The notes under the pieces: generated by a model | Told to the model about the DNA's origin: nothing | What the model saw: only the letters and a program-made list of their open reading frames with translations | The model's database searches: none | Shown here: positions 9,154 through 35,382 of the stretch, piece by piece | Layout of the letters: every line of letters starts with the position of its first letter | Numbering within the stretch: the first letter of the stretch is position 1 | Virus record (IMG/VR): IMGVR_UViG_3300036766_001059 | Span: 1 to 37,940 of that record | DNA length: 37,940 nucleotides | Direction: 5' to 3' (one strand) | DNA from: a virus | Translations under genes and position numbers: made by a program

Positions 9154-9171
9154 GGTCTCCTTCTCGCGCGT

Positions 9172-20151: not shown

Positions 20152-20361
20152 CTAGACGGGCTCCCCGAACACGGCCCGGTAGGCCTGGATCGTGGTGGAC
20201 ACGCCGAGGCGGGAACGGATGTTCGCCAGGGTGGCCCGGACGGTACCCGGGGCGACTCCGCAGCGCTTCGCCGCGATCTTCTGGCTCCCGGTCTCCGCAT
20301 AGGCCCGGAGGATCTCGAGCTGGCGCGGCGTGAGCCGCTCGACGCCGGCGGCGAGGGTCAC
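20152..20361 (-). CDS. Minimal LuxR-type HTH protein
   Basis: 69 residues from GTG 20361, overlapping the integrase stop (GTGA). Almost the whole protein is a LuxR/GerE HTH: VERLTPRQLEILRAYAETGS, then QKIAAKRCGVAPGTVRATLANIRSRLGV. It is coupled to the integrase, so it could act as a directionality or transcription factor for the integrase block or the neighbouring late genes. No other domain is present. Confidence 0.8.
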   Translation of the reverse strand: MTLAAGVERLTPRQLEILRAYAETGSQKIAAKRCGVAPGTVRATLANIRSRLGVSTTIQAYRAVFGEPV

Positions 20362-21914
20362 GCGGACCTCGCGATCCGGAGGCGCTCCCGCCGGCCATAG
20401 ATCGGGACCCTGACCGTGTGGACGTGTGGCCCGGGCGCCTGCCGGGGGCGCCAGTCCACACCGACGAGCTCCGGCATCGCCTGGTCGAGCCCGATGTCAT
20501 ACGCCCAGGGCGTGAGCTCGACGCCGGCGAACGACCGGCCGACGACGTCGATCCGGGCGTAGACCGCATGGACCAGGCGAGCGCGCTCCTCGGGGGTCGC
20601 CTCGATCCAGAGGCCCGCGAGGTCGGCGACCGCGGCGATCGCCTCGTCCGCGCCGACCTCGGACCGGCGCGGAGTCCTCGCCTGCTCAAGCTCTGCACGC
20701 AATCGGCGGACCCCGGTGAGGTAGACGTCGTCGCTGAGGCGTTCGCCGGCGTGCTCGAGGGCGAGGTCCCGGATCGCACGCTCGAGCCGGGCTCTCGTCG
20801 TGTCGATCGGCCGCGCGACGCGGGCCTCGACGACTCGCCGGATCCGGGCGATGGCGGCGGGGCCGAGGTTCGTCCCGGCGATCTGGCCCTCGATCGCCGG
20901 CTCCCACGCCTCGAGGGGCACGGACGCCGACGAGCCCCAGCCCGAGCATGGATCCGGGTGGAGCATCCGGCGACGCGCCCGGGCTCCCTCGCCCATCAGG
21001 CCGTTCGAGCGGATCCGCCGGCCGCACGACCCGCAGGCGACGAGGCCGCGGAGGAGGTCGGTATCGTGACGGTGCGACGGGCCGCCGCCGCGGAGCCGCT
21101 GGGCGCGGAGGTCGGCGCAGCGGCGCCACAGCTCGTCGCTCACCGGCGGGTCGGCTCGCCAGGGCGCGGGGAGGCGCTCCTCGTCGGGCCCGCGGTGCCG
21201 GCGGACCCAGCCGGCGTAGAGCGGGTTCCGGAGCATCTTCACGACCCGCTCGTACTCGAGCCCGGTGACCCGGGCGAGGTCGCGCATCGAGAGCGAGCCC
21301 TCGGCGTAGCGGCGGAAGACCTCGACCGCCCGCTCGATCGACGCAGGGTCGATCTCGAGGACATGCGGCGCCTCGGCGGACCGCCGGAACCCGAGCGGTG
21401 GGTTGCCGGCCTGGTCGGCGTAGCGGCGGAACTTGGCCGCGTAGCCGTCGGTGATCCGGCCCGCCAGGCGCCGGATGTAGCGCTCGGCCGCGGTCGCCTC
21501 GGCCACGAGCTCGTCCCAATCCTCGGGATCCGAGGACAGGATCCGGCGATCGGCCATGAAGACGGCGACGCCGACGGGGTGGAGCTCGTCCTCGAGGATC
21601 TCGAGCGTTCGGCGAAGGTTGCGCTGCCAGCGATCGCTGTAGCCGACGAGGAGGACATCGAAGGCGCCGGCGGCCGCGTCGTCGAGCATCCGGCGCATCT
21701 CGGTCGAGCGCCAGGCGATCTTGCCCGAGACGGCGACCTGGTAGACGAGGCCCGTGTCGACGACGCCGAGGCGCTCCGCCGCGAGGTCCTGCTTCTCGCG
21801 CTGGCTGTCCGGGCCGAATGTGTCGAACTGGCCCTCGGTCGATTCGCGGATCCAGCGGGCGAACCGCCGACCGCGGAGCTCCTCGATCGAACGGACGAGT
21901 CGACGGCTGGTCAC
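20358..21914 (-). CDS. int: Large serine integrase
   Basis: 518 residues from GTG 21914 (GTGA with the upstream small gene). The resolvase domain begins FARWIRESTEGQFDTFGPDSQREKQ with nucleophile Ser25, and continues through DVLLVGYSDRWQRNLRRTLEILEDEL. The recombinase domain includes PLGFRR, then SMRDLARVTGLEYERVVKMLRNPLYAGWV. The zinc ribbon is LRGLVACGSCGRRI, with a later Cys in HPDPCSGWG, followed by coiled-coil-like helices (ARLERAIRDLALEHAGERLS). It would integrate the phage at a host attB. The earlier start at 22040 would be Arg/Pro-rich shadow and is rejected. Confidence 0.93.
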   Translation of the reverse strand: MTSRRLVRSIEELRGRRFARWIRESTEGQFDTFGPDSQREKQDLAAERLGVVDTGLVYQVAVSGKIAWRSTEMRRMLDDAAAGAFDVLLVGYSDRWQRNLRRTLEILEDELHPVGVAVFMADRRILSSDPEDWDELVAEATAAERYIRRLAGRITDGYAAKFRRYADQAGNPPLGFRRSAEAPHVLEIDPASIERAVEVFRRYAEGSLSMRDLARVTGLEYERVVKMLRNPLYAGWVRRHRGPDEERLPAPWRADPPVSDELWRRCADLRAQRLRGGGPSHRHDTDLLRGLVACGSCGRRIRSNGLMGEGARARRRMLHPDPCSGWGSSASVPLEAWEPAIEGQIAGTNLGPAAIARIRRVVEARVARPIDTTRARLERAIRDLALEHAGERLSDDVYLTGVRRLRAELEQARTPRRSEVGADEAIAAVADLAGLWIEATPEERARLVHAVYARIDVVGRSFAGVELTPWAYDIGLDQAMPELVGVDWRPRQAPGPHVHTVRVPIYGRRERLRIARSA

Positions 21915-22078
21915 GCTGCGCGCCCTCCTCGCGGGCCACCCTGGACGACGGTCATCGTAGCCCGTCGCTCGGCGGTCTCGCGGCGGCGTGCCGCGACCGC
22001 GAGGGCGAGCTCGGCGAGGAGCGTCACGAGCGGGTTGCACTCGGGCCGCGTCGGGTTCCGCGCGGAACGCTCAGGCAT
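21911..22078 (-). CDS. Small hypothetical protein upstream of integrase
   Basis: 55 residues from ATG 22078 (MPERSARNPTRPECNPLVTL). A helical centre (LVTLLAELALAVAARRRETAERRA) is flanked by flexible ends. It overlaps the previous gene by 8 bases and ends GTGA into the integrase. Unknown function; a recombination cofactor is possible by position only. Confidence 0.5.
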   Translation of the reverse strand: MPERSARNPTRPECNPLVTLLAELALAVAARRRETAERRATMTVVQGGPRGGRAA

Positions 22079-22360: not shown

Positions 22361-22524
22361 CGCGGCTCTCCCGGTGTCTTGGCCAGAGCGTCGCGAACGG
22401 CGGCAAGGAGCTGGTTCAGTTGGTAGGCAATGTCGGCGTGGAGGGCACGGAGCGCGGCGGCCCAGCGCCATCCGACGACCTCGCCCACTGTTTCGGACTT
22501 GTCTCGGGCTGCGGAGTCGGTCAT
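22357..22524 (-). CDS. Small hypothetical protein
   Basis: 55 residues from ATG 22524 (MTDSAARDKSETVGEVVGWR), mainly one long amphipathic helix (WAAALRALHADIAYQLNQLLAAVRDALAK). It overlaps the VRR-NUC gene upstream (ATGA) and the membrane gene downstream (ATGA). No known family. Confidence 0.5.
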   Translation of the reverse strand: MTDSAARDKSETVGEVVGWRWAAALRALHADIAYQLNQLLAAVRDALAKTPGEPR

Positions 22525-22862
22525 CGGAGCACCTCTCGGATCCGCGCTAGGTCGGCCGGGCGCCAGACGTAGACCTCGGCGCCGGCTGCGGTCCAGGCGT
22601 CGAGCCAGGCCTGCTGCGCCGCCTCGACGCGGCCGCTGGCAGCTTTCAGCTCGGCGACAACGATCCGACCGGCCCGGATGGCGACGAAGTCCGGCCAGCC
22701 CGGATCGCCCTGCTGCTGGGCGAGGTCGGCCCGCCGAATGTGGTGCCAGCGCCAGCCGGCGAGGGTCGCCTCCGTCTCGACCGCGACGAGGAGGTCCTCC
22801 TCGGGCATGGCGCCGGCGAGCATCGCCCGATAGTCCTCGACGGACGTCAGTTCGCGAGCCAT
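22521..22862 (-). CDS. VRR-NUC domain nuclease
   Basis: 113 residues from ATG 22862. The PD-(D/E)xK core is clear: GDPGWPDFVAIRAGRIVVAELKAASGRV with Asp58, Glu71 and Lys73, then QQAWLDAWTAAGAEVYVWRPAD. Stand-alone VRR-NUC proteins are common in phages and resemble Holliday-junction or flap nucleases (FAN1 carries the same domain). It lies between replication genes and integrase and likely processes recombination or replication intermediates. Confidence 0.88.
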   Translation of the reverse strand: MARELTSVEDYRAMLAGAMPEEDLLVAVETEATLAGWRWHHIRRADLAQQQGDPGWPDFVAIRAGRIVVAELKAASGRVEAAQQAWLDAWTAAGAEVYVWRPADLARIREVLR

Positions 22863-23134
22863 GCCGGCTCCTCCATCGATGCATCGGCTGGCGGTGGGGG
22901 GGGCTCGGGCAGGGGCTCGGGCTCGATCGCCGGCGCCTTCGCCGGCCGGTCGTCGTTGACCGGCCAGTCCTCGCCGATGACGGACGTGACCCGGGTCCAG
23001 CAGGCCTCGACGTTCACGCAGCGCGGCAGGGTGTCGTAGCGGCGGCCGGCGATCGGCTCGCGCCACTCCACGAGGCGGACGGTGACCTCGCCGTCGTCGG
23101 CGCCGCACAGCAGGCAGGCGAGCTGGGGGCTCAT
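22847..23134 (-). CDS. Small Cys-containing protein, possible zinc binding
   Basis: 95 residues. CLLCGADD near residue 7 and a later CVNVEAC give four Cys in two pairs, suggesting a zinc site. The C-terminal third is Pro-rich (EPEPLPEPPPPPADA), coded over a run of eight G/C bases. The end overlaps the VRR-NUC start by 16 bases. Function unknown. Confidence 0.55.
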   Translation of the reverse strand: MSPQLACLLCGADDGEVTVRLVEWREPIAGRRYDTLPRCVNVEACWTRVTSVIGEDWPVNDDRPAKAPAIEPEPLPEPPPPPADASMEEPAWLAN

Positions 23135-23246
23135 GAGGCCTCGGGACTTTCTGGTTCCCGTTTCGACATCGCCGGAGCGTGGCTGCGATGCGGTCCTAGT
23201 CCAGCCAGGGCCTCAGAGGATTCCGACCCCCCTACCCACCACCAGG

Positions 23247-23870
23247 TCATGACGTCGGCTCCGGAGCGGCCTCGCCCATCCAGGCCGGCTCCTCCGGCGT
23301 CGGCTCGACCCCTTTCGCCCCATTGCGTCGGGCCGCCAGCCCAGCGACGAAACCGCCAGCCTCAGCCGCCGCGTGCTCCAGTGCTCGCGCGTCAGCGCGC
23401 TCTTCAACCATACCCGAATCCGAATCCGAACCCGAATCCGAAGAGGACTTGTCCGGACTTGTACGTACTCGTCCGGACTTCTGCCCATCTGAACTCAAAT
23501 CGGCGGTTGTACGTACTCGTACGGACATGCACGTACTTCGGTGACGGGCGAGGTGGGTCTCGGCCTTGGTGCCGCCCTTTGCCCCGTGTTTGGGCAGGGT
23601 CGGCACGACGCCGTGTTCGCCGCAGTCGAGGTACTTCACGCGACCGAGCGCGACCAGGTCGGCGAGGCAGCCATCGACCATCCGCTGGCGCCTGGCTGGG
23701 CCCTCGTACGGAAAGAGCTCGGCCGCGATCTGGCGGGGTTTCAGCTCGAAGTAGCCGGCGTCGTCGCACAGGGTCCAGAGCCCCATGTAGACGTAGCGCG
23801 ACGTGATCGCGAGCGCGGCCATCCGCTCGTCCTTGAAGAAGTCGGGCCGGAGCAGGCGGGTGCGGCTCAT
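23247..23870 (-). CDS. Winged-helix phage replication-type protein (candidate initiator)
   Basis: 207 residues from ATG 23870 (ATGA overlap). The N-terminal 110 residues match a phage family related to replisome-organiser proteins: RTRLLRPDFFKDERMAALAI, YMGLWTLCDDAGYFELKPRQIAAELFPY, LADLVALGRVKYLD. The middle (about 125-150) is low complexity (SSSDSGSDSDSG) and coded by repeats; the C-terminus ends EEPAWMGEAAPEPTS. Such genes often carry the origin, as with lambda O, and here the repeats lie inside the gene. Replication function is inferred, not proven. Confidence 0.65.
   Translation of the reverse strand: MSRTRLLRPDFFKDERMAALAITSRYVYMGLWTLCDDAGYFELKPRQIAAELFPYEGPARRQRMVDGCLADLVALGRVKYLDCGEHGVVPTLPKHGAKGGTKAETHLARHRSTCMSVRVRTTADLSSDGQKSGRVRTSPDKSSSDSGSDSDSGMVEERADARALEHAAAEAGGFVAGLAARRNGAKGVEPTPEEPAWMGEAAPEPTS
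23413..23537. repeat. Iteron-like direct repeats inside the replication gene, candidate origin
   Basis: TTGTACGTACTCGT occurs at 23459-23472 and 23507-23520, both followed by near-identical (C/A)CGGAC. GTCCGGACTT occurs at 23451-23460 and 23471-23480. CCGAAT/CCGAAC hexamers fill 23414-23442, and a partial copy (GCACGTACTT) is at 23530-23539. A relatively AT-rich patch (CATCTGAACTCAAAT) lies between the two long copies. Confidence 0.6.
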
Positions 23871-24094
23871 GCCCAGCCCCACTCACGAGCCACCGCCCGG
23901 GCGGCGCGCCTGGCCGCCAGTTCGTCGCGCACTCGTTGGCGGCGGCGGCCGTTGGCCTCGACGACCTCACGCCGGCGACGCCAGGCATGGTGCCGGTCGG
24001 TCGCGTTGTGGCGCTCCACGGCGTCCGCGACGGCCCACGAGGCGCCCGCGACGATCAGGCCGCCACAGACGCAGGTGGCCTGCAGTTCGCTCAT
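23867..24094 (-). CDS. Small protein with zinc-finger-like start
   Basis: 75 residues from ATG 24094 (ATGA). CVCGG at residues 8-12 followed by ERHNATDRH gives a possible C2H2-type metal site. The C-terminal half is Arg-rich helix (AWRRRREVVEANGRRRQRVRDELAARRAARAV), likely nucleic-acid binding. Unrecognised family. Confidence 0.55.
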   Translation of the reverse strand: MSELQATCVCGGLIVAGASWAVADAVERHNATDRHHAWRRRREVVEANGRRRQRVRDELAARRAARAVAREWGWA

Positions 24095-24714
24095 CGGGGC
24101 ACCTCAGTGGACCCAGCCGCGGCCGCCCGGCGCCGGTCCCGAATGGTCGTGAGGCGCTGCGAGATCGCCCATCCGCTGCTGTAGCCGAGCGCCTTCGCAG
24201 CGGCTTCCATCGAGACGTGCGCCGCGACCGCCGCCTCGATCTCGTCGTCGGTATGCCGCGGCGGCCTGCCCCCGCGACGCTTCCCCGGACCCCCCCCAGC
24301 CGCGGCGGGAGCTTTCGCGGCCGCCTTGGAAGCTCGGGCGGCTACCAGGCCCGCGGCACCTCGGGCCCGGCTGGCGGCCATCCGGGCAACGTCGGGCGTC
24401 GGTACGGCCGGTGTCAGCCCAGGGGCAGGCTCCGGCGCGACGGCGCCGGCGAGGAAGTGATCGCACTCGACCTCGAACGCGAGGCGGATCCGGACCGCCT
24501 CGTGGGGCGACGCCATCGAGCGGACCGCCAGCTTGTCCGCGTCCAGGAGCGGCCGGATCGCGCAGACAGCCGCATGGGCGCAGCCCGGGCAGGGCAAGAC
24601 TGGGCGGAGCAGCGTGAGCCGCTCCACGGGCCCAGCGCCGCCCGTGGGCCCGCCGCGGCCGTTGCCGACCACGACCTCGGAGCCGCCCTGTTCGATGTGC
24701 GCGGGGATGGTCAT
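24091..24714 (-). CDS. DNA-binding-like protein with Cys cluster and C-terminal HTH
   Basis: 207 residues from ATG 24714 (ATGA with the HerA gene). CPGCAHAAVC at about 41-50 plus a later Cys near 83 may hold a metal. The middle is an Ala/Pro-rich linker (about 90-150). The C-terminal RHTDDEIEAAVAAHVSMEAAAKALGYSSGWAISQRLTTIRDRRR reads as a helix-turn-helix. The gene follows HerA directly, suggesting a role in DNA processing or its control. No known family. Confidence 0.55.
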   Translation of the reverse strand: MTIPAHIEQGGSEVVVGNGRGGPTGGAGPVERLTLLRPVLPCPGCAHAAVCAIRPLLDADKLAVRSMASPHEAVRIRLAFEVECDHFLAGAVAPEPAPGLTPAVPTPDVARMAASRARGAAGLVAARASKAAAKAPAAAGGGPGKRRGGRPPRHTDDEIEAAVAAHVSMEAAAKALGYSSGWAISQRLTTIRDRRRAAAAGSTEVPR

Positions 24715-26480
24715 CGCCGACCACCGAGGAAGAGCGCCGCGCCGGCGCGGAGGATCCCGCCCTGCTCGTCGAGGAGACCGTTGCGTCGGAGGGCCGAAAG
24801 GTAGTCGCTGAACGTGCCCGACGTCGTCACGATCTCCGACCGCTCGCCGAGCTCCGTCCTCGTCAGGCCGCCGGGGTAGACGTCATGAAGGGCTCCGAGC
24901 ATGCGTCTCGCGCCCGCCTTGAGCTTCCGGCCCCACATCTCGAGGAGCACGTCCGACGTCGGCGCGCCGCTCCCCAGCTCGCCGGCGACCATGGCCTGGC
25001 CGGCGTCCGAGAGGGCCAGTGTGCGCCCGTCCTCGACGACCAGCCCGGCGATCCGGATTGAGGACAGGTAGTCGCTGAACGTGCCCGAGGCCGGGCTGAG
25101 GTCGGACAGGGTCGCGACCTGGTGACGTGTGAGCGGCGTGGGATGGAGCTGGGCGAGCGCCGACAGCATCCGACGCGCGCCGGCCTTGAGGCGTGGGGCG
25201 CCGCCGACGTCGGAGTCCGTCGAAGCGGCACGCTCCGGGCTGCGGCTTTGCTGCGGCGCCCCGGTCCGCCCCTGAGAACCGGGCGTGACCCGGGGCTGCA
25301 GGGGTACGACCCCTTGCTCAGGAGTGGGCCTAGGAGCCGAAGCGACTCGCCCGATGGCCGCGGTGATGTCGACGGCCACGCCGACGAGCGACCGTCCGAC
25401 GACCTCGAGTCGAGCCAGGCCTTCGAGGAGAGCGCCGACCTGGCCGTTGAGGACCGGGACCTCGACGATGACCTCGCGGACCTCGGGAATAGAATCGGCA
25501 TGATCTGCGCGGGCTTTGACAAGGTCCCGCTCGAGCGCGCCGATCCGCCGGCGGAGCTCGGCGGGATCGTTGGCCCTCTGCTGCTCGATCGTCGCGGCGA
25601 TCCGGGTCCCGAGCGCCTCGAGGTCGACCTGGGCAAAGGCCCGCGGCGCGATGGCCACCTCGCCCGCCTCGGGGGTCCTGCTCGAGTCGAAGGTGGTGCG
25701 AGCCCGAATCCGGACGCGCTGCAGGATCCGCAGGAACGACGGGCTCCAGATCCAGGCCTCGCCCTGCTCAAGCGATGCCAGCGATCCGAGGACCTCGTCG
25801 CGCTCCTCGCGCGTCCCGTTGCCGGCGATCCAGTCGTCGATGGCCGCGCGGTCCTGGGGCCCGGTCGTCTGCATGACGACGAGGACCTCGGTCTGCGTGA
25901 GCACGTTCTTGTTGAGGACGGCCGCCCGCTGGGTGATGAGTAGGTCGCCGAGGCCCTTAATCCGGCCCCGACGGACGATCGCCTCGGTCGCGCCGAGCGT
26001 TCGCGTCTGGTCGGGTCCGGGGCGTTGGGGAGCGAAGACATCGGCCTCGTCGACGACCAAGAAGAGCGGGCCTGTCTCGCGCTTCTTCGCCCGGTAGAGC
26101 CGCTCGAGGAAGTCGGCCGCGAACCGGACCTCGGCCGCCTTCGATTCGAAGCTCGACAGGTCGACGACGTACGCGCCCGGGTGCTCGATGACGACGTCGG
26201 CGATGATCTTGCCCGCGGTCGGCTCGAGGGGCACGTCGCCGTGGTCGCCGCCGAAGATGACGACGGGCAGGCCCGGGCGATCGCCGTCGACCGAGCTCCG
26301 TAGACCCCACCAGGCCCCGGTCGGGTCGAGGATGACGACGGGCACCGTGGCCCGTACGACCTCCTCGACGATGACCGACGCCGTGTAGGTCTTCCCCGCC
26401 CCGCGCCGGGCTAGGATGGCGATCGGCTGCGTGACGACGTCGACGGGCAGCTCGAGGCCTGGCGCAATCCGAAGGGCCAT
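24711..26480 (-). CDS. HerA/FtsK-like hexameric ATPase with two winged-helix repeats
   Basis: 589 residues. Walker A is ARRGAGKTYTA (residues 24-34), Walker B PLFLVVDEADVFAPQ (Asp144, Glu145), with downstream GLGDLLITQRAAVLNKNVLTQTE as sensor and VMQTTGPQDRAAIDDWI, the pattern of HerA-type DNA translocases. After a linker, two similar winged-helix modules follow: about 432-497 (KAGARRMLSALAQLHPTPLT) and 520-583 (KAGARRMLGALHDVYPGGLT), each with SGTFSDYLS. In archaea HerA acts with NurA, Mre11 and Rad50 in end resection; the same operon here has Mre11- and Rad50-like genes. It could also be a defence-type HerA, but a recombination role fits the context better. Confidence 0.88.
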   Translation of the reverse strand: MALRIAPGLELPVDVVTQPIAILARRGAGKTYTASVIVEEVVRATVPVVILDPTGAWWGLRSSVDGDRPGLPVVIFGGDHGDVPLEPTAGKIIADVVIEHPGAYVVDLSSFESKAAEVRFAADFLERLYRAKKRETGPLFLVVDEADVFAPQRPGPDQTRTLGATEAIVRRGRIKGLGDLLITQRAAVLNKNVLTQTEVLVVMQTTGPQDRAAIDDWIAGNGTREERDEVLGSLASLEQGEAWIWSPSFLRILQRVRIRARTTFDSSRTPEAGEVAIAPRAFAQVDLEALGTRIAATIEQQRANDPAELRRRIGALERDLVKARADHADSIPEVREVIVEVPVLNGQVGALLEGLARLEVVGRSLVGVAVDITAAIGRVASAPRPTPEQGVVPLQPRVTPGSQGRTGAPQQSRSPERAASTDSDVGGAPRLKAGARRMLSALAQLHPTPLTRHQVATLSDLSPASGTFSDYLSSIRIAGLVVEDGRTLALSDAGQAMVAGELGSGAPTSDVLLEMWGRKLKAGARRMLGALHDVYPGGLTRTELGERSEIVTTSGTFSDYLSALRRNGLLDEQGGILRAGAALFLGGRR

Positions 26481-27379
26481 CAGTTGAGCGGGGCCGGCGG
26501 CTGCTGGTGCCCGTTGCGCCGTGAGCGACGGGGCGGAACCGGGCCCGGCAGGAGGTCGTCATCGGCGCCGTCGGTCGATCGCTCGGCCTCGCGGACATCA
26601 TTCGCGGCCGCGCCGCGGAGCTCGTCGGCGTTGACCTCGCCCGTCGGACGGAGGTCGGCGTCGGCGTTCGGTGCGCCCTCGCCGAAGTCGACGTCGCCGG
26701 CGTCGGCCGGCAACGGCTCGCCGGGCCTCGCGGCGCGGACCCTCGTGCCGGTCTTCGGATCATCGAGCGCGCCGGCGTTGATCTCGTCCACGGCTGCGTC
26801 GAGGGCTGCCTTGGACAGCGCAGCGACGTCGACGGGCCGCAGGGGCGTCGGCTCCGGGCGTTCCTGCTGATGGTGCCAGTCGAGGAAGGCCCGGAAGAAG
26901 GCGGCGTGGTGGTCGCGCCGAGGCCCGAAGCGCTTGACGGTGAGGGCGAACTCCTCGACATCGTGCTCGCGCAGCGAGACCTTGGCCTGGCCGTCCGGGC
27001 CGGGCTCGCCGATCTCGATGTGGCTGAGCTCGTGATGGAGGACGCCGCGCCGCTCCTGCTCGGTGAACTTCTCCCAGAACCACTGCCGGAACTGGATGAC
27101 GAGCTCCGTCTCGCCCAGGAGCCGCCAGAGCGGCGAGGCCTTCGTGACCTTCGCGATCGTGTGCGGCTTCAGCTCTTCCTTGAGCGGGTCGAACGCCTTC
27201 GTCTCGAAGACGGTCCGGATCCGGAGGCCGTCCTCTCGGATGGCCGTCTGGATGGGCTCGAACTCGTCGAACGAGGCCGCGACGTCGTCGGCCAGCTCGC
27301 CGACCTCCGGCGCCACGATGAACGGCGCGACGTAGGTGTCCGGGAAGAGGCCGGACTCCGGGCTGAGGGGGATGGTCAT
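26480..27379 (-). CDS. Putative phage zinc metallopeptidase
   Basis: 299 residues. HHELSHIEIG (His116-Glu117-Leu-Ser-His120) is a gluzincin-type HExxH-like site as found in the phage metallopeptidase family. Upstream TKASPLWRLLGETELVIQF and downstream EHDVEEFALTVKRFGPRRDHHAAFFRAFLDWH are family-like, where Glu or His could be the third ligand. The last 120 residues are acidic and disordered. A strong AGGAGGAG site precedes the ATG. It ends TGATG into the HerA gene, implying linked expression. Substrate unknown. Confidence 0.8.
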   Translation of the reverse strand: MTIPLSPESGLFPDTYVAPFIVAPEVGELADDVAASFDEFEPIQTAIREDGLRIRTVFETKAFDPLKEELKPHTIAKVTKASPLWRLLGETELVIQFRQWFWEKFTEQERRGVLHHELSHIEIGEPGPDGQAKVSLREHDVEEFALTVKRFGPRRDHHAAFFRAFLDWHHQQERPEPTPLRPVDVAALSKAALDAAVDEINAGALDDPKTGTRVRAARPGEPLPADAGDVDFGEGAPNADADLRPTGEVNADELRGAAANDVREAERSTDGADDDLLPGPVPPRRSRRNGHQQPPAPLN

Positions 27380-27400
27380 GCGTGCTCTCCTCCTGGTCGC

Positions 27401-29626
27401 CTACGCGACCTCTGTGACGACCGAACCTCGGTCGCCTTTTCGGACCTCGTACGTGGCATCCCCGAACTCGGCCAGGTCCGCGTGGTGCGAGACCAAGACC
27501 ACCCTCGACAGCTCGCCGCGGTGGGCGATGACCCGGAGCGCCTGGCCGAAGGCGCGGCGGGCGTCGGCGTCCAGGCCGTCCGGCTCGTCGACGATCAGTG
27601 ACTCGATCCGCGAGCCCGCCCGGCGCGCCACGAGGCGGCTGAGGCCGACCGCGAGGGCGAGCGAGACGCTCATCCGTTCGCCGCCGCTGAACAGCGCCAG
27701 CGGCCGCTCACCGACCTCGTCGCGCACGACGAGGTCGAGCGCCTCGACGACGCCCGACCCGTCGCGCTTCGCCCGCTGGGCCCGGAGCTCGAGGGTCATC
27801 CCCGGGCGGAGGTCGGCGAGAAGCTCGTTGGCGTACCGCGCGAGCTCGGGCAACACGCCCTCGATGATCCTGGCTGGGATCCCGGTGACACCGAACGCGG
27901 TCACCAGGCGGCGCAGGCGCGTGAGCTCGACACCCGACGCCTCGAGGGTGCCGGCCAGCGCATCGCGCTCCGTGGCCACGAGCGTGAGTTGCTCGAGCTT
28001 GGCGTCGATGCCGGCGAGGACGCGGTCGGCCACGCGCAGCCGGGCCACATACGCCTCCTGCCGGCCCTTGGCCTCGAGGACACTCTGGGCCCGGGTGGCG
28101 CGTTCCTCGCGGAACGGCGCGGCATCGGCGACTTTCCCCTCGAGCTCGGCGATCCGGGTGGCGATCGCGGAGCCGCGCTCGCTGATCCGGACCTGGTCGA
28201 CGTCGGCCGAGGTGACGTTCGCCTGCTCGCGCTCGAGCGTCGCGCGCGCCGCGTCGAGGGCCTCGCCCCGGGCCGCGACCGCAGTGATCTCGGAGACCCT
28301 GGCATGGGTCGTCGTCAGGGCCGCGGGATCGAAGGGCGCCTCGCGCCGGCGGGATTCGAGCCGAGCGAGGGCGGCTCGGCCGCGGGACAGCGCCGCCGGC
28401 TCCTTCGGCTCGGCACCCTCGAGCGTCCTGAACTCAGCGCGCGCCGCCTCGAGGGCCGGCCGGATCCCGGCCTGGTCCACCAGGTTGTGGTGGCCGCACT
28501 TCTCGCAGATGACGGGCTCGAGCGAACTCGCCGCCGCGGCGAGTTCGTCGACTCGCCGGCGAGCGGCCTCGTACCGCGCGCGATGGTCCGCGGTCGCGAC
28601 CTGGTGCTCCCGGCCGGCCGCCTCGAGCGCCATCTCGGCCTGGCGGATCTCGATACCGAGCATCCGGTCGGCCGCCTCGGCGGCGACGAGACGATCGAGC
28701 TCCGCCTTGGCGCTCGGGAGCGCGGCCACGGCGACGGCCACGATGGGCGCGGCTGCCAGGAGCAGCTCGGCATCGGCGATCCACACGGCGGCCTTGGCCT
28801 TGCGCTCGCTGGCGGCGTGCCAGTCGGCGGCTGCGGCGGCCCGCTCGGCCCGCAGCGATGCGATCTCGCCGGCGACGGCGTCGGCGGCCGCGAGAGCGAC
28901 GTCGAGCTCCCGGATCCGCGCCTCGGCCGCCTCGCGATCGACAGTCGCCCGGGCGCCCTCGTTCTCGGCGTCGGCCTTGACCTCGAGCGCCTGCCCCCGG
29001 TCGTTCTCGATCTCGGCCCGCTCCAGGAGCCGTGTAGAAAGCTGCTCACAATTTGAGCGGTCCGCGCCAATGCGTGCCTCGAGGTCGCGCGCCGTCTCGC
29101 GGGCCCGGGCCTCGGCGCGGGCATAGACGTCCAATCCCAACACTTGGCCGAGGATCCGCTTGCGCTCCGCGGCCGTCGCCTCGGCGAAGGCGTTCGCGTG
29201 GCCCTGGCCGAGCAGGACGGCCGTCGCGAAGGTCGCCGCGTCGAGGCGCAACAGCTCGGCGATCGCCGTCTCGGTATCCCGGATCGTGTCGCCCGTGAGC
29301 GGCCGCCAGTCGTCGCCGTCCGCGACGTGGAGCTCCAGAAACGACTTCCCGCCAGCCTTCGTCGTGCGGCCGCGGACGACCCGGTAGCGGGCGTCGCCGA
29401 AGGTGAACTCGACGAGGACGCTCATGTTCGTAGCGCCGAGCTGGACGAGCTGGTCGGTCCGGCCGCGAGCCTCGTCGAAGAGGGCATAGGAAAGCGCGTC
29501 CGAGGCGAGCGTCGACTTGCCGGCGCCGTTCGGGCCGACGAGCGTCACGAGACGGGCGCCGTTGGGCGCCCAGTCGGTGGCGGTGTGCGAAAGGAACCCC
29601 TCGAGACGGATGCGGTCCAGGCGCAC
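27401..29626 (-). CDS. sbcC: Rad50/SbcC-type SMC ATPase
   Basis: 741 residues from GTG 29626 (TAGTG junction). Walker A GPNGAGKST is at 31-39; long coiled coils surround a zinc hook at Cys374-x2-Cys377 (ICEKCGHH); near the C-terminus are the ABC signature LFSGGERMSVSLALAVGLS and Walker B LIVDEPDGLDADARR. It is shorter than bacterial SbcC (about 1000), as usual for phage forms such as T4 gp46. With SbcD it would open, trim or resect DNA ends during phage replication. Confidence 0.93.
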   Translation of the reverse strand: MRLDRIRLEGFLSHTATDWAPNGARLVTLVGPNGAGKSTLASDALSYALFDEARGRTDQLVQLGATNMSVLVEFTFGDARYRVVRGRTTKAGGKSFLELHVADGDDWRPLTGDTIRDTETAIAELLRLDAATFATAVLLGQGHANAFAEATAAERKRILGQVLGLDVYARAEARARETARDLEARIGADRSNCEQLSTRLLERAEIENDRGQALEVKADAENEGARATVDREAAEARIRELDVALAAADAVAGEIASLRAERAAAAADWHAASERKAKAAVWIADAELLLAAAPIVAVAVAALPSAKAELDRLVAAEAADRMLGIEIRQAEMALEAAGREHQVATADHRARYEAARRRVDELAAAASSLEPVICEKCGHHNLVDQAGIRPALEAARAEFRTLEGAEPKEPAALSRGRAALARLESRRREAPFDPAALTTTHARVSEITAVAARGEALDAARATLEREQANVTSADVDQVRISERGSAIATRIAELEGKVADAAPFREERATRAQSVLEAKGRQEAYVARLRVADRVLAGIDAKLEQLTLVATERDALAGTLEASGVELTRLRRLVTAFGVTGIPARIIEGVLPELARYANELLADLRPGMTLELRAQRAKRDGSGVVEALDLVVRDEVGERPLALFSGGERMSVSLALAVGLSRLVARRAGSRIESLIVDEPDGLDADARRAFGQALRVIAHRGELSRVVLVSHHADLAEFGDATYEVRKGDRGSVVTEVA

Positions 29627-30207
29627 TAGGACCAGACCTTTCCGCTCGCGACGAGTGAGATCGTTGACGATGAGACGCCGTGCAGTCGGGCGAGTTCGAC
29701 CTGGGCAACACCAGCAGCCAGGGCAGCCCGGATCGCGGTGGCCGTCTCAAAGGTCAACTTGGCGTTGCCGCGAGGGCTGCGGTTTCCACGGAGGACCCGG
29801 TCCGGGAACCGCCGGGTCCAGTGGGCGTCGCCTCGGCAGCGACGTTCCGGCGGGAGCGGCCGGCCGCGCACGACAACCTTCCGACCCTTCGCGATCATGT
29901 CTGCGACGTTGTCGGCGGGCGTGCCCAGGAATAGATGGGCGGGGTTGCAGCAAGGCCGGACGTCGCAATGATGGAGGACGCCCATGCCCTCGGGGATGTC
30001 GCCGTTCGTGAGGATCCAGGCAGCTTGGTGAGCGCGCCGCGACCGACCCTGCAGGTACGTGACCCCGTATCCCGATCGGTTGACGGGTCCTGTCCAGAGC
30101 CAGCATGCATCGGGGCCGCCAGATCGATCCACGCGGTCCCAAAACGGGGTCTGGGGTCGGCCGACCGGAACGGCGCCCCCGCAATGGGGGCAAACGATGT
30201 TCCCCAT
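29626..30207 (-). CDS. HNH endonuclease inserted between sbcD and sbcC
   Basis: 193 residues from ATG 30207 (TGATG). A CPHCGG zinc pair opens the protein; WDRVDRSGGPDACWLWTGPV and HHCDVRPCCNPAHLFLGTPADNVADMIAKGR form the HNH_3 core. The C-terminal KLTFETATAIRAALAAGVAQVELARLHGVSSSTISLVASGK is a DNA-binding HTH, as in homing nucleases. It interrupts an otherwise tight sbcD-sbcC pair with perfect stop/start overlaps on both sides, typical of a freestanding homing gene. Confidence 0.9.
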   Translation of the reverse strand: MGNIVCPHCGGAVPVGRPQTPFWDRVDRSGGPDACWLWTGPVNRSGYGVTYLQGRSRRAHQAAWILTNGDIPEGMGVLHHCDVRPCCNPAHLFLGTPADNVADMIAKGRKVVVRGRPLPPERRCRGDAHWTRRFPDRVLRGNRSPRGNAKLTFETATAIRAALAAGVAQVELARLHGVSSSTISLVASGKVWS

Positions 30208-31349
30208 CACGCCGCGACCTCCGCGAGCAGCGCCCGCCCGCGCTCGACGAGGACCTCGCGGTCGACGTCGTCGACGAAGTACTCATCGAGCGCCTCGTGG
30301 GCGGTCAGCGTCTCGGACAGCCCGCCATTCGACTCGGGGGCCTGGACCGGGCGCCGACGGATCTCCGCGACCTCGAAGGGCAGGGTCCCGAGGATCGAGC
30401 GGATCTCCTCGACCTGGTCGGTCGGCGCGTCAACGACGCGGACGACGGATCCGCAGATCGCGGCCGCGAGCTCCTCCTCCGCCCACTCGCCGAGGACGCC
30501 ATCGCCGGTCAACGTCACGAACCGGCGCGCCGGGATCGGGATCCGCTCGACCGTCGCGCGCCCGTCCACGACATCGAGCAGGACGAACGACTGCTCGTCG
30601 AACTCCTCAGCGAAGTCAACGCGGTGGGTCGAGCCCGTGAAGAGCACCGGGCAGGCCGGGTCGTCGACGAGTATCTGCGCCCTATGCACGTGCCCAAAGA
30701 CGACCGCGGCATAGCCGATCGACCCGAGGGCCCGGGCGTCGATGACGAGATCGAGATCGCCGAGGAAGGCCTGCTGGCTCGCGCTCATCCGGCCGCCCGC
30801 GAGCTGCTGGTGGCCGACGAGGATCGCGGCCTTGGCGCCGAGGGCTTCAGCCGCGACGAACTGGCCGCGGGCGATTGTCAGATAGGCCTCGGCGAGCGCG
30901 CGGTAGACGTCGCCCTGGCTCGCCGTCTCCATGCCGGCCTGGCTGCGGAGGTACGACGGTGCGAGGAATGGGATCACACAGACGGCGACGTCGCCGACGA
31001 GCTCCACGCCCGGCGACGTGAAGCCGGACCAGCCATCGACCTGGCCGAGCACGTCGACGATGCTCTGGCCGGCGCGCTCCTGGTCATGGTTTCCGCGGAC
31101 GTGGATCTGGCGATCGGGGCCGGCCTTGAGGGCATCGATAATCCGGGCCACGCGGGGCGGCGCCGGCGTCCGGCGCTCGGTGTAATCGCCTGCGATGACG
31201 AGCGCCTCAGCGCCCAGTTCGCGCGCGGTCGAGGCCACGAAGCGAGCCGCGGTCAGGGCATCCACGAAGCGCGCGTTTAGGCCGGAGCCGGGATCCACCT
31301 TCGAGCCGAAGTCGTCGACGTGCAGGTCGCCGCTGATCGCGATCTTCAC
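30207..31349 (-). CDS. sbcD: Mre11/SbcD-type nuclease
   Basis: 380 residues. All metallophosphoesterase motifs are present: GDLHVDD (7-13), GDYTE (54-58), GNHDQE (86-91), VGHQQ and FGHVHRAQI, so the active site looks complete. The C-terminal capping region is present and ends EVLVERGRALLAEVAA. It pairs with the Rad50-like gene downstream, separated only by an HNH gene. The complex would have exonuclease and hairpin-opening endonuclease activity. Confidence 0.93.
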   Translation of the reverse strand: MKIAISGDLHVDDFGSKVDPGSGLNARFVDALTAARFVASTARELGAEALVIAGDYTERRTPAPPRVARIIDALKAGPDRQIHVRGNHDQERAGQSIVDVLGQVDGWSGFTSPGVELVGDVAVCVIPFLAPSYLRSQAGMETASQGDVYRALAEAYLTIARGQFVAAEALGAKAAILVGHQQLAGGRMSASQQAFLGDLDLVIDARALGSIGYAAVVFGHVHRAQILVDDPACPVLFTGSTHRVDFAEEFDEQSFVLLDVVDGRATVERIPIPARRFVTLTGDGVLGEWAEEELAAAICGSVVRVVDAPTDQVEEIRSILGTLPFEVAEIRRRPVQAPESNGGLSETLTAHEALDEYFVDDVDREVLVERGRALLAEVAA

Positions 31350-32020
31350 GTCGCCAGCTCCCCGGGCAGCCGGCGACCCTTGCGCGAGTTGCAGTCGCGG
31401 CAGAGGTTCTGGATGTTGCCCGTCGTGTTCGACCCGCCCCGGCAGAACGGCACGATGTGGTCAAGGCCCGCGCCGTCGCCGCACATGACGCAGTTCGGCT
31501 CGCGGCGCCAGAGGTCCATGACGTTGTCGGGGCTCAGCCGGCCGTCAGCTCCGCACTCCTCAGCCCGCTTGTTGGCCGAGGCCGCGATGTGGATCGCCCG
31601 CGCGCGTGTCGGGTTCTCTTCCTTCCAGCGGGTGGCCTTCGCGATCGCGCGAGCCGGGTCGGCGAGGTAGGCCGCCCGTTTCTTGGCAGCGATCTCCTCG
31701 CGGTGCTCGGCGAGATAGCCGGGCCGGTACATCGCCATGTACGCGACGAACTCCGCCCGATGCTCCTGCCGGTAGCGAGCCATGTACGCCCGCCGTGCGT
31801 CAGGGTTCTTCGCTCGCGATCGCCGCCCGTATTCGCGCCAGCGGTCAGGATTGGCCGCTCGATCGGCCTGCTGGCGTGCACGGAGTTCAGCCCGATGTGC
31901 GACCTGCCAGTCGGGGTGGTAGCTCGGATTGGCCTCGCGCCATCGGCGGTTGGCTACCCGCTGCGTCGCGCGCTGACGCTCGGCCAGGTCGGGCGGCAGA
32001 TCCGCGAGTCGCCGCGTCAC
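31346..32020 (-). CDS. HNH endonuclease with long basic repeat region
   Basis: 224 residues from GTG 32020 (GTGA). The first 150 are repeats rich in Arg/Ala/Tyr (RWREANPSYHPDWQVAHRAE, YMARYRQEHRAEFVAYMAMYRPGYLAEHREE), a pattern seen as DNA-binding arms in phage HNH enzymes. The nuclease is C-terminal: CVMCGDGAGLDHIVPFCRGGSNTTGNIQNLCRDCNSRKG, a classic C-x2-C / DHIVP / C-x2-CN core (HNH_5-like). It ends ATGA into sbcD. Confidence 0.88.
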   Translation of the reverse strand: MTRRLADLPPDLAERQRATQRVANRRWREANPSYHPDWQVAHRAELRARQQADRAANPDRWREYGRRSRAKNPDARRAYMARYRQEHRAEFVAYMAMYRPGYLAEHREEIAAKKRAAYLADPARAIAKATRWKEENPTRARAIHIAASANKRAEECGADGRLSPDNVMDLWRREPNCVMCGDGAGLDHIVPFCRGGSNTTGNIQNLCRDCNSRKGRRLPGELAT

Positions 32021-32214
32021 TGGATCGCCCGCCGGCGAATCCGCCGCTTGCCGAGCTCCTGGGCGATGAGCGCGATCCACGTCTCCTCCTCGGCATCGAT
32101 CGCGAGGCGCCAGTGGTTGGCCGCCATGACGAGCCGCGCCCCGGCGGCCTCGGCGCCGATCGAGGAGCCTCCCGCGCCGCAGAACAGGTCGGTGACCGTG
32201 ATGTCGAGCGTCAT
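32017..32214 (-). pseudogene. N-terminal remnant of a C5 cytosine DNA methyltransferase
   Basis: 65 residues from ATG 32214. Residues 5-32 (ITVTDLFCGAGGSSIGAEAA, then GARLVMAANHW) hold motif I (DLFCGAGG) and the start of motif II of C5 methyltransferases, which are normally 300-400 residues. The PCQ, ENV and target-recognition parts are missing; the frame instead ends in EEETWIALIAQELGKRRIRRR of unknown origin. Both ends still overlap neighbours (ATGA, GTGA), so a short product is probably made. It cannot methylate DNA alone; it may bind AdoMet or be a deletion relic. Confidence 0.75.
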
Positions 32215-32552
32215 CCCCTGCTCGCCTCCACGGCCTCGCCGGCGCCGACCGGCGCGTCGAAGCCCTCGGCCAGCCAGGCCGGATCCGGGAGACCGAGCCC
32301 AGCCTCGAAGGCCTCGGCCTGGGCGACCCGGTAACACGTGCCCCGGAACTGGCCGCCGGCGCACGTGCAGGTCAGCTGGCCGACCCGCTTGAGGACCGTC
32401 CCATCGGGATCGATCAGCTCGACCTGCACGGGCTGGATCAGATGGAGGTAGGTCTGGTCTCGCGACACGGCGGCGTAAGTCCGCCGACTCGCGCTGAGGA
32501 CGACGAGGGTGTCGGGCTCGAAGTTGATCCCGACGTGGACGATCCGGGTCAT
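32211..32552 (-). CDS. SWIM-like zinc-finger protein
   Basis: 113 residues from ATG 32552 (ATGA). VGQLTCTCAGGQFRGTCYRVAQAEAFEAG resembles a SWIM zinc finger (C-x-C-x8-C-x-H), with Arg in place of the final His. The N-terminal half is beta strand (HVGINFEPDTLVVLSASRRTY). SWIM proteins bind DNA or partners and some assist recombination; Shu-type proteins in eukaryotes act with recombinases. It follows the annealing-protein candidate directly, which suits a cofactor role. Confidence 0.6.
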   Translation of the reverse strand: MTRIVHVGINFEPDTLVVLSASRRTYAAVSRDQTYLHLIQPVQVELIDPDGTVLKRVGQLTCTCAGGQFRGTCYRVAQAEAFEAGLGLPDPAWLAEGFDAPVGAGEAVEASRG

Positions 32553-33709
32553 GCCGCCTGCCCCCGCGCGTGCTCGGCGATCGCCCGGATCGCGGCGTGG
32601 AACTCGTCCGTGCCCAGCGAGTCGGCGACGTTGACGAGGCTCTGCGCCTGGGCCGCGGTGAGCGCCGACTTGACGGTCTCGTCCCAGATGTAGACGAGGG
32701 CCGTGGTCGTGACGCCGGGCGGGGTCAGACCGCCCAGGAGGCCCTTGAGCTTCTCGAGCTGGGGCGCGGTCGCGGGGCCCTTCATGCCCGACGCGGCCGC
32801 GGTATCGCGGATGAGGGCGGCCACGTCGACCTCGGCAGGTGCGGCCGCCGGCGTCGGGACCGACGCGGCCACGGCTCCCGTGATCCAGTCCGGCTCCGCG
32901 GGTGCCGATGCGGCCGCGGCGAGCTTCTCGCCCGGCATCGTGGTCGGCGTGGCCGGCGCCGGATCTTCCTCGGCCGCCTCGGGTGCGTGGATCTCCGGCT
33001 CTCCGGCCGCGAGCTGCTTCATCGGCGCCAGCGCGGGCGACGGTCCGTAGAGCTGCGCGGTGACCGGGATCATCGCGTCGAGGACCCGGGTCCTGACCTC
33101 GGGGTGCTCCATGTTCAGGACATAGCTGACGACCACGAACGGCTTCGCCAGATCGGCCTCGGGGTAGCTCGATCGGAGCGAGAGGACGCCCCGGATGCCG
33201 CGGTTCATCGCCCGGGTCTGGACGTTTGCGTAGAACTGCTTCCGGAACTTCGCAACCTCGGCCTGGCTGGCGTCGCTCTTGAACCAAGTCCGGAGGTCGA
33301 TGAGTTGCGAGCCGGGAGCGGTGATCCGCTGCCCGGTCGGCAGGATCATCGAGACGTCCATGGTCACGCCGAGAATCTCGGGGTCGCTCCCGTCGTCGAT
33401 GCGGTGCTCGTTCGTGAACGTGAGACCGGCCGCAGACGAAAACTTTCGGAGGAGCCGGGCGGTCGGGGCGCGGTGTCCGGTGGGGACGTCGTTGGACTTG
33501 TAGGTGTCGGCCGACTTGCCGTCGCGATCGGGCGGATCCGCCTGGATCACCTGATAGGCGGGCTTGAACAGATCGCTCGGCATGACGATCGTCTGCATCG
33601 GAATGAGCCGGTTGAAGTCCTCCACCGGGAACTGGTCGAGGGTCCACTCGACGACGCTCGACGAGACGTCCTGCTCGATGACGGCGACGGCGGTCTGCGG
33701 GTTGGTCAT
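32549..33709 (-). CDS. Candidate single-strand annealing / recombination protein
   Basis: 386 residues, ATG with AGGAG 8 bases upstream. A first conserved region (EDFNRLIPMQTIVMPSDLF, DPPDRDGKSADTY) is shared with the gene at 34972-35382. Residues about 154-192 (KFRKQFYANVQTRAMNRGIR, then SLRSSYPEADLAKPFVV) recall the TRA-x-x-R-G/A motif of Rad52/Erf/Sak-type annealing proteins. An Ala/Pro-rich linker follows, and the C-terminal 90 residues (APQLEKLKGLLGGLTPPG) are a small helical domain. The place upstream of SbcCD supports recombination, but the family is not certain; a replication accessory protein is the alternative. Confidence 0.5.
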   Translation of the reverse strand: MTNPQTAVAVIEQDVSSSVVEWTLDQFPVEDFNRLIPMQTIVMPSDLFKPAYQVIQADPPDRDGKSADTYKSNDVPTGHRAPTARLLRKFSSAAGLTFTNEHRIDDGSDPEILGVTMDVSMILPTGQRITAPGSQLIDLRTWFKSDASQAEVAKFRKQFYANVQTRAMNRGIRGVLSLRSSYPEADLAKPFVVVSYVLNMEHPEVRTRVLDAMIPVTAQLYGPSPALAPMKQLAAGEPEIHAPEAAEEDPAPATPTTMPGEKLAAAASAPAEPDWITGAVAASVPTPAAAPAEVDVAALIRDTAAASGMKGPATAPQLEKLKGLLGGLTPPGVTTTALVYIWDETVKSALTAAQAQSLVNVADSLGTDEFHAAIRAIAEHARGQAA

Positions 33710-33778: not shown

Positions 33779-34315
33779 CTAGCCGCTCAGCAGCGGCAGC
33801 TGGGCGTCGCCCCGCTGGCCGGTTGGATCAGCGGCTGGATGCGGCGGCCTTCGAAGAGGCGGTCGGGCAGAGGAGCCGCCGCCCGCCTCTTCGAGGGAGA
33901 CCGGATCCGTGGAGGAGAGGACGCCTGTTTCGACCTCTCGGGTGGTGAAGAACGCTCGTGTCGGGGCGCTCGGGCCGTCCGGGTGCGCCTTGGGCCGACC
34001 GTCGTGTTCGACGTGTGGGCAATAGAAGCCCCAGCGGTCTGTTGGCCAGTCGAGGACGGGGCCGTGGCCTGGGTCGACGGGGCAGCGCGGGTTGTGGAGC
34101 TGTCCCCGCCCAGGAAGCCCGCTAGGCCGTTTCGTTACCGAGACGCCCACATGGGCGTCCCCGGCGGTGTCGCCGCGCGGCGCCGCCCGGAATGCAGCCA
34201 CGCGGCATTTTTCGGAGCAGTACCGGGGAATCCGGCCAGGCCGACGGACTCCCAGCGCCTTGCCGCACTTCCGGCACGCCGGCAGGAGGTCGACGAGCGG
34301 CTGCTCGCCGGTCAC
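33779..34315 (-). CDS. Zinc-ribbon hypothetical protein
   Basis: 178 residues from GTG 34315 (GTGA). CRKCGKALGVRRPGRIPRYCSEKCRVAAFR near the N-terminus is a clear four-Cys zinc motif of the type seen in small phage and MYND/FCS-like proteins. A second possible site is HNPRCPVDPGHG...YCPHVEHD. The C-terminal 60 residues are low complexity. The longer frame upstream is shadow of the HNH gene. Function unknown; DNA binding plausible. Confidence 0.65.
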   Translation of the reverse strand: MTGEQPLVDLLPACRKCGKALGVRRPGRIPRYCSEKCRVAAFRAAPRGDTAGDAHVGVSVTKRPSGLPGRGQLHNPRCPVDPGHGPVLDWPTDRWGFYCPHVEHDGRPKAHPDGPSAPTRAFFTTREVETGVLSSTDPVSLEEAGGGSSARPPLRRPPHPAADPTGQRGDAQLPLLSG

Positions 34316-34731
34316 GACGGCCACCGCAGACGCCGTTCGATGATCGCCTTCGTCGCCATCGCCACGATGACCCGCTTCCGGAGCCCGGAGCGCAGCTGCA
34401 TCAGCTCGGCGTCGGTCCAGCTCGGCGTCGCGAGGACCCCGGCGTAGCGCAGCCGCATCCGCTCCTTGACGAACGTCCGCCGCTCGGCGAGGGTCTCCTG
34501 GACCGTGGCGCGGGCGAGGCCGTTGCACTCTCGACAGGCAACGACCGTCAGCCGCCGACGTCGATCGGCGAGAGCACGCAGAGCGTCTGGGTCGTCGGCG
34601 AGGATCTCGAGCGCGGAGCGCGGGATGACGTGGTCGACGGTGTCGGCCGACAGCCCGCAGTAGAAGCACCGCGTTTCGTCGCTGGTGAGCGCCTCGCGGA
34701 GAACCAGGCCAGCTTCTTCGAGGACGCTCAT
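34312..34731 (-). CDS. HNH endonuclease
   Basis: 139 residues from ATG 34731 (ATGA). CFYCGLSADTVDHVIPRSALE and VVACRECNGLARATV form a C-x2-C, DHVIP, C-x2-CN core. The C-terminal half is helical (LAERRTFVKERMRLRYAGVL). It sits among small early genes between two paralogous genes, so it may be an inserted homing-type nuclease. Confidence 0.85.
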   Translation of the reverse strand: MSVLEEAGLVLREALTSDETRCFYCGLSADTVDHVIPRSALEILADDPDALRALADRRRRLTVVACRECNGLARATVQETLAERRTFVKERMRLRYAGVLATPSWTDAELMQLRSGLRKRVIVAMATKAIIERRLRWPS

Positions 34732-34862
34732 CGCGCCCAGCCCCGCCGGACCGAGTACCGCGAGCAGTGCGACCGCCGGCAGAGATAGATCCGCTCGGTC
34801 CCGATGCGCCTGACCAGGCCGACGTCGTGACGGCCAAGAAGGCACAGGAGGCGGCCGAGCAT
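34728..34862 (-). CDS. 44-residue Cys/Arg-rich protein
   Basis: ATG 34862 to TGA 34728 gives MLGRLLCLLGRHDVGLVRRI, then GTERIYLCRRSHCSRYSVRRGWAR. Cys at 7, 32 and 37 with His at 12 and 36 could bind zinc. It starts in a TGATG junction and ends ATGA into the HNH gene. Tiny phage proteins with a CLLGRH start and later C-x-R-x-x-C are familiar but have no known role. Confidence 0.55.
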   Translation of the reverse strand: MLGRLLCLLGRHDVGLVRRIGTERIYLCRRSHCSRYSVRRGWAR

Positions 34863-34975
34863 CAGAGCCACCGTCCGACGATCCGCTCGAGGCGCTCGGG
34901 ACCGACGACGGTGTAGCCGATCGCCAGGAAGAGCAGGAAGCCCGAGACGAGGAGGCCGGCGTCGGCCCCGGTCAC
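34862..34975 (-). CDS. 37-residue membrane peptide
   Basis: GTG 34975 overlaps the stop of the paralogue gene upstream (GTGA); the TGA shares a base with the next ATG (TGATG). Span: AGLLVSGFLLFLAIGYTVVG, then a short basic tail ERLERIVGRWL. Coupling at both ends suggests it is translated. Unknown function. Confidence 0.5.
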   Translation of the reverse strand: MTGADAGLLVSGFLLFLAIGYTVVGPERLERIVGRWL

Positions 34976-35382
34976 AGGACGCTCCCGGTCAGCTCGCGGG
35001 CCCGGAGGTTCGCGCGCCACCGGGGCTCGGGCGGGAGGTTCCGCGAGCCCCGGGTGTGCGCGCCACGGCGATGGAAGTCGTCCAGGCGGCGCTCGTCGTA
35101 GAAGCTGAGCGATGCCGCGGTCGCGACCTTGGACAGGCCGCGGGCTGTCAGTGCCCGGCGGCCGGCCGGGACGTCCTTGCTGGAGTAGTGGTCGAGCGAC
35201 TTGCCCTCGCGGTCGGCCGGATCCATCACGACCGGATTGACCACGGGGATGAACAGGTCGCCCGGCATCCAGATCCGCTGGACCGGAATCAGCCTGTTGA
35301 ACTTGTCCTCGGGCCAGTTGTCGAGGCTGTAGGTGACCCCGGCCTCCCCGGCCGGGACCAGTGCGGTCTCTGTGCGTGTCAT
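34972..35382 (-). CDS. Truncated paralogue of the annealing-protein candidate
   Basis: 136 residues, with GAGGAG 6 bases before the ATG. Residues about 20-105 align with the N-terminal region of the protein at 32549-33709: shared FNRLIP-Q-I-MP-DLF-P, DP-DR-GKS-D-Y-S-DVP-G-RA-TAR-L-K and AA-L-F--E-R-DD. The remaining parts of the longer protein are absent; the tail is FHRRGAHTRGSRNLPPEPRW. It may be a regulator or decoy of the full protein, or a relic of duplication. Confidence 0.7.
   Translation of the reverse strand: MTRTETALVPAGEAGVTYSLDNWPEDKFNRLIPVQRIWMPGDLFIPVVNPVVMDPADREGKSLDHYSSKDVPAGRRALTARGLSKVATAASLSFYDERRLDDFHRRGAHTRGSRNLPPEPRWRANLRARELTGSVL

Follow-up and report, generated by a model that had tools for sequence, protein, structure and literature searches.

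In archaea, DNA ends are processed by a resection machine of HerA, NurA, Mre11 and Rad50, in which NurA is an RNase-H-like torus (PMC5715905). FtsK/SpoIIIE belongs to the same motor superfamily as HerA, and its guidance through FtsK-gamma and KOPS has been described (PMC2680272). In phages, SbcCD (Mre11-Rad50) is known from T4 and T5, and an annealase gene stands beside a nuclease gene in lambda Red, RecET and the Sak4-SbcC modules; sak4 adjoining sbcC was reported for streptococcal phages (PMC8093625). Here we compare with these systems a region of the IMG/VR record IMGVR_UViG_3300036766_001059, which was analysed over its whole length of 37,940 bases (the window; 70.7% G+C). The region encodes a HerA-type ATPase, SbcC, SbcD, a metallopeptidase, a candidate annealing protein and a VRR-NUC-like nuclease, all on the minus strand. 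An original prediction from the sequence had listed them, and the positions that it gave hold. That prediction saw in these genes one operon parallel to the archaeal machine. The HerA-type motor, SbcCD, VRR-NUC and annealing protein were recovered, whereas the archaeal parallel was not. Our analysis makes it moderately likely that this part of a temperate, high-GC tailed phage serves recombination and replication and that it holds two devices, a Red-like recombination pair and a DNA translocase with paired reading modules. The activities assigned here, and the separate action of the two devices, are inferred.

The unit that recurs among the viral records is annealase-SbcD-SbcC. The annealase gene, which belongs to PHROG 13782, lies directly upstream of SbcD and SbcC in the window (HNH genes aside) and in L041, L114, L116 and L017, the last with a weaker annealase match (E 4e-9); in L016, HerA and one further open reading frame stand between them. 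Six of the eight records with the annealase carry both SbcC and SbcD, compared with one of 44 others (Fisher p 9e-6, for records that are not fully independent because L114 is related to the window phage), and RecT was found in none of the eight. The adjoining recombination nuclease is SbcD/SbcC in six loci and a phrog_298 exonuclease in L117, the seventh annealase record. The catalytic motifs of the window SbcCD are intact, in SbcC the Walker A, CXXC zinc hook, signature, Walker B and H-loop, as in SbcCD and Mre11-Rad50 of other sources including T4 and T5. The window pair differs from these in its short SbcC, its annealase-linked operon and the HNH gene between the subunits. An annealase beside sbcC is of a known kind; the new part is the family, PHROG 13782. 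SbcD and SbcC are both present. In L017 (6546-10004, plus strand) the two are fused in one open reading frame of 1152 residues next to HerA. The gene context was compared for every PHROG 13782 protein retrieved. The annealase relatives in viral contigs were retrieved with an alignment query, single-sequence searches of viral contigs with SbcC, SbcD and the annealase having given no matches. A search for PHROG 13782 in 29 HerA-bearing bacterial genomes gave no match, and one in 396 genomes of a single phylum gave one, weak and partial.

PHROG 13782 is labelled as being of unknown function in PHROGs, and we propose it as a candidate Rad52-like annealase. The top PDB match of its structural model is human RAD52 (E 0.004, probability 0.99, Z 6.7), followed by Mgm101 and phage Sak, and its matches among viral structures bear the names Rad52/59/22, Erf and RecT. 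The predicted N-terminal domain has the order of strands and helices seen in Rad52-type annealases, whose fold is beta-beta-beta-alpha. In addition, the tail of the protein (residues about 250-386) matches that of a PF03837 RecT in L049 (E 4e-33), and YqaJ adjoins this RecT. The same tail is borne by a protein with a Gp3-like domain in L005 (3650-4861; PF18897, recombination directionality factor-like); since annealase, RecT and this protein carry it, the tail moves between recombination proteins. Fold, tail and SbcD-SbcC linkage agree in pointing to the annealing protein that had been predicted, each with a modest score. Several points count against it, together with the relatedness of L114 mentioned above: the fold match is weak (Z at most 6.7, from a model built on eight sequences with a predicted local distance difference test score, pLDDT, of 74) and the annealase profile matched no PDB sequence. 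Nor is the lack of HerA in L114 and L116 final, because the L114 sequence stops within SbcC and only a piece of 19 kb represents L116; several of the viral records compared are fragments.

In the proposed recombination pair, SbcCD would open and trim DNA ends, the Rad52-like annealase would pair the exposed strands and the VRR-NUC protein would probably resolve the resulting branched DNA. SbcCD would then fill the place held by a YqaJ-type exonuclease beside RecT in related phages. The annealase-SbcCD pair provides PHROG 13782, so labelled unknown, with a function that can be put to the test, and it is a possible new recombineering pair. We also observed module swapping in L049, which has the integrase type and metallopeptidase of the window and carries YqaJ, RecT, a polymerase X-like protein and Hjc in place of SbcCD, annealase, HerA and VRR-NUC.

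The VRR-NUC protein is probably a Holliday junction resolvase, to judge from its motifs and relatives. Its Pfam match is under the cut-off (20.5 against 23.8 bits; 21.2 bits in a genome search), though it matches PHROG families of endonucleases and of Holliday junction resolvases and has the PD-(D/E)xK active-site motif, which upholds the domain predicted there. The solved stand-alone VRR-Nuc proteins (stNUC, saNUC and psNUC) are Hjc-like dimers that cut Holliday junctions (PMC4103454), and the window protein, with its sub-threshold match, shares their single-domain size and PD...ExK motif. Resolvase-type nucleases also lie nearby in related phages, Hjc-like in L049 and VRR-NUC in L003 and L116. 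Because of these relatives and neighbours, a resolvase fits the protein better than a substitute for NurA, which has a different fold.

The second proposed device is HerA. It has a DUF87 domain (E 2.9e-9) with Walker A, Walker B and RRGR motifs, and its AlphaFold2 (AF2) model, built from 39 sequences (pLDDT 89), matches HerA motor structures with Z about 29 over residues 1-283, so that the predicted HerA-type motor is confirmed. The core resembles that of the archaeal HerA of the HerA-NurA pair (Sulfolobus 4d2i and Thermococcus 9x1m; Z 28.6-28.8 over about 245-250 residues, 24-27% identity), with RecA-type motifs. In the HerA family the HAS barrel lies N-terminal to the motor. Residue 1 of the phage model aligns to target residues of about 112-154, and the barrel is missing. 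Unlike archaeal HerA, the phage protein thus has neither this barrel nor a NurA gene, and it adds long helices and two tandem winged-helix modules. It belongs to a phage family of its own with the signature DPTGAWWGL, and no grouping with packaging or defence families emerged. Besides 46 IMG/VR loci and a single GenBank phage, the members comprise 63 loci from genomes of bacteria and archaea. They were gathered by a pattern search that requires the conserved signature and therefore leaves out relatives at a greater distance. A role as packaging ATPase was rejected: the window has its own terminase, and the match of HerA to PHROG 2666 ('terminase') reflects superfamily kinship. The neighbours of HerA vary and include DNA polymerase X-like proteins, RecT, YqaJ and others. 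A ParB-like protein lies near HerA in 21 of 111 loci (for example L015, L017 and L041), more commonly than SbcCD, and a functional link is possible. In L041 (9848-11622) HerA is split across two overlapping frames, by a frameshift in the gene or in the assembly.

The two winged-helix modules, predicted from the AF2 secondary structure and present in 89 of 98 full-length HerA proteins by module alignment, evolve in lockstep at their recognition helices. In the window HerA the recognition-helix faces of modules A and B are identical. We defined a code of seven exposed recognition-helix positions and compared it in 76 non-redundant HerA proteins, among which 66 codes occur. Modules A and B of one protein differ at a mean of 0.66 of the seven positions, compared with 5.06 between proteins, whereas ten control columns differ at 8.74 positions within a protein and 8.95 between proteins. 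Code column 40 changed about 50 times per module on the tree of the motor (ATPase) domain, and A differs from B there in only seven of the 76 proteins. Across 25 sister pairs, 86 differences at code positions were concerted and 12 one-sided; at control positions the numbers were 5 and 97. Some excess of matching is also present at the starts of helices 1 and 2 and in the wing, with little or none at buried positions 39, 43 and 46 and in the second half of the domain. Copying of DNA from one module to the other was rejected as the general cause because synonymous codons at matched sites agree in 0.473 of cases, only slightly above the 0.422 expected by chance.

The simplest reading of these patterns is that both modules read one DNA word, which differs between phages, and the lockstep change suggests that the motor of each virus reads a private word. 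HerA would act as a hexameric translocase of double-stranded DNA, each subunit ending in two modules with the same specificity. It would probably dock on a repeated, phage-specific word of its own genome and pump DNA from there, for the recombination, replication or segregation of that genome. Such docking may be likened to the steering of FtsK by FtsK-gamma on KOPS. In both, a C-terminal winged helix, predicted in the case of HerA, sits on a motor of one superfamily (Z about 17), whereas the phage HerA has two such predicted helices per subunit with matched, fast-changing faces, any homology of these to gamma being putative. More specifically, selection may keep the paired readers identical while their specificity diverges rapidly from phage to phage, which would restrict loading of the motor to its own genome; this self-address idea is tentative and falls somewhat short of an even chance. 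Against the reading of a DNA word by HerA, the target word was not found: no word is over-represented in the window, no dyad common to loci of the same code exceeds chance and the search for clustered repeats was also empty. The codons of residues 465-471 and 554-560 in the window are moreover identical (21 nucleotides), and recent copying in this one gene is possible, as an exception to the general pattern. If true, the self-address would be a barcode-like discrimination of self from non-self for a DNA pump, and the matched readers may show how temperate phages keep DNA-handling motors off each other's genomes. The 66 codes would also be a natural experiment on how winged-helix proteins read DNA.

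The lockstep test shows joint evolution and not DNA contact, and with the empty word searches this leaves room for the matched faces to be a shared protein interface (between modules, within the hexamer or with a common partner) held by a symmetry constraint. We think this unlikely: matching falls on the columns that should face DNA in a winged helix, namely the exposed positions of helix 3, the beginnings of the first two helices and the wing, and the buried positions show much less excess or none. It is also rather unlikely, if less so, that HerA is the replication motor of the phage, its paired modules binding origin iterons and its hexamer opening or loading at the origin in place of DnaB or a DnaC-type loader. 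In the window some 1 kb separates HerA from the replication initiator gene, which holds five of the six GT(A/C)CG(T/G)AC palindromes of the whole record, between 23451 and 23526, in an array that is probably a lambda-O-type origin; no DnaB was found in the window record, and DnaB_C was matched in only six of the 47 HerA records. Nevertheless, six records do have this match, absence of DnaB is common among temperate phages in any case, near most HerA loci there is no iteron array, and L005, with an almost equal code (GGTSDYS against SGTSDYS), is without such iterons in its available part. L007 has an array (8913-9180) in which TACTGGCA/TGCCAGTA is repeated at least seven times; it lies upstream of HerA, at a distance of about 1 kb, and is a candidate for an origin or for a site of HerA.

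A phage version of archaeal end resection, in which HerA would pump DNA into VRR-NUC in the role of NurA together with Mre11-Rad50, was the thrust of the original prediction. All components do lie inside 11 kb on one strand, HerA has the motor fold, L016, L017 and L041 likewise have SbcCD near HerA, and the L017 record has VRR-NUC as well; however, NurA (PF09376) was matched in none of the 47 HerA-bearing viral records, while the same profile matched in seven of 14 control genomes, and VRR-NUC is present in only five of the 47. SbcCD lies within 10 kb of HerA in four of 48 viral loci (the window and the three just named) and in not one of the 63 loci from genomes of bacteria and archaea. On the HerA tree this proximity needs at least three changes, and the closest relatives (L003, L004 and L005) are without it, which largely speaks against conservation of the neighbourhood in other phages. 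Since the HAS barrel is missing, NurA is absent and the SbcCD linkage is rare, the parallel fails as a claim of membership. The neighbourhood, fold and NurA tests led us to reject a conserved HerA-Mre11-Rad50-VRR-NUC machine and, with the stand-alone VRR-Nuc proteins being dimeric junction cutters, make the resection reading very unlikely. Equally improbable, or slightly more so, is a defence or counter-defence ATPase of the kind of Sir2-HerA, DUF4297-HerA or MADS. PADLOC gave weak hits on its models for HerA and mad8, and some of the nearest solved motors are defence HerAs, which points that way, but the listed defence HerAs have an N-terminal part that is missing in the phage HerA, and the SbcC match to mad3 is generic Rad50 kinship. 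No Sir2, DUF4297 or other effector was found among the neighbours scanned, a search made without dedicated models across all loci.

The claim of one operon holds in part. SbcD, the HNH gene that follows it and SbcC overlap by 4 and 1 nucleotides, the metallopeptidase starts 21 nucleotides past SbcC, and its stop lies on the start of HerA (1-nucleotide overlap), so that these genes are coupled or nearly so. Nevertheless, HNH genes are wedged in, whereas in L041 annealase, SbcD and SbcC are directly consecutive, and VRR-NUC, which had been included in the operon, lies beyond further genes, one of them the replication initiator. The metallopeptidase was rejected as a partner of HerA or SbcCD, as it occurs in the RecT phages L049 and L050, both without either, and a match to JetA (E 0.0087) was set aside, the HEXXH region being outside it.

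Table 1. Features of the window discussed in the text, in order of position.
Feature	Position	Strand	Basis or remark
Large terminase	14836-16950		phrog_9
Serine recombinase	20358-22040		
Stand-alone VRR-NUC-like nuclease	22521-22862	-	Motifs GDPGWPDFV and AELKA; PHROG 93, PHROG 5702
Replication initiation protein	23247-23882	-	phrog_16167
Iteron-like array inside initiator gene	23449-23526	.	Five palindromes, mostly 10 bp apart
Gene of unknown function	24091-24714	-	4-nucleotide overlap with HerA stop; weak homologue beside metallopeptidase in L049
HerA-family ATPase, 589 residues	24711-26480	-	Phage subfamily without HAS barrel; DUF87, AF2 model, motifs
Predicted winged-helix module B of HerA (residues about 519-589)	24714-24926	-	Recognition-helix face SGTFSDYLS, residues 554-562
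Predicted winged-helix module A of HerA (residues about 430-505)	24966-25193	-	Recognition-helix face SGTFSDYLS, residues 465-473
PhageMetallopep protein	26480-27379	-	PF18894, E 9.5e-17; HEXXH as HELSH at residue 116
SbcC/Rad50 ATPase, 741 residues	27401-29626	-	phrog_77, E 1e-66; short coiled coil
HNH_3 endonuclease gene between SbcD and SbcC	29626-30210	-	Family match
SbcD/Mre11 nuclease subunit	30207-31349	-	phrog_100, E 6e-18; all phosphoesterase motifs intact
HNH endonuclease gene upstream of SbcD	31346-32080	-	
Candidate single-strand annealing protein, 386 residues	32549-33709	-	PHROG 13782; N-terminal domain Rad52-like in the model, tail matching that of a RecT
Shortened second annealase copy, N-terminal 100 residues or so only	34972-35382	-	54% identical over 87 residues; HNH gene 34312-34845 downstream

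The virus, for which environmental DNA is the only source, is a temperate tailed phage. Nearly all genes of the window lie on the minus strand, and besides the serine recombinase and large terminase they encode a portal, a head protease and a major head protein. The window is the whole IMG/VR record; its ends are not circular and it is possibly a fragment.

The window holds five HNH endonuclease-like genes, those at 364-915 and 36052-36567 in addition to the three in Table 1, of which three of the five belong to the same HNH_3 family and resemble homing-type insertions. A fragment of the N-terminal part of a C5 cytosine methylase (32017-32364) is broken off near the HNH gene upstream of SbcD. 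A SWIM-like protein had been predicted in the operon; none was found, and the genes of doubtful identity in this part encode HNH endonucleases and the methylase fragment. Finally, positions 12191-12261 hold six to seven tandem copies of the 10-bp unit GGGTGCAGAC, just upstream of the start of the probable head protease, which may form a protein-binding array.

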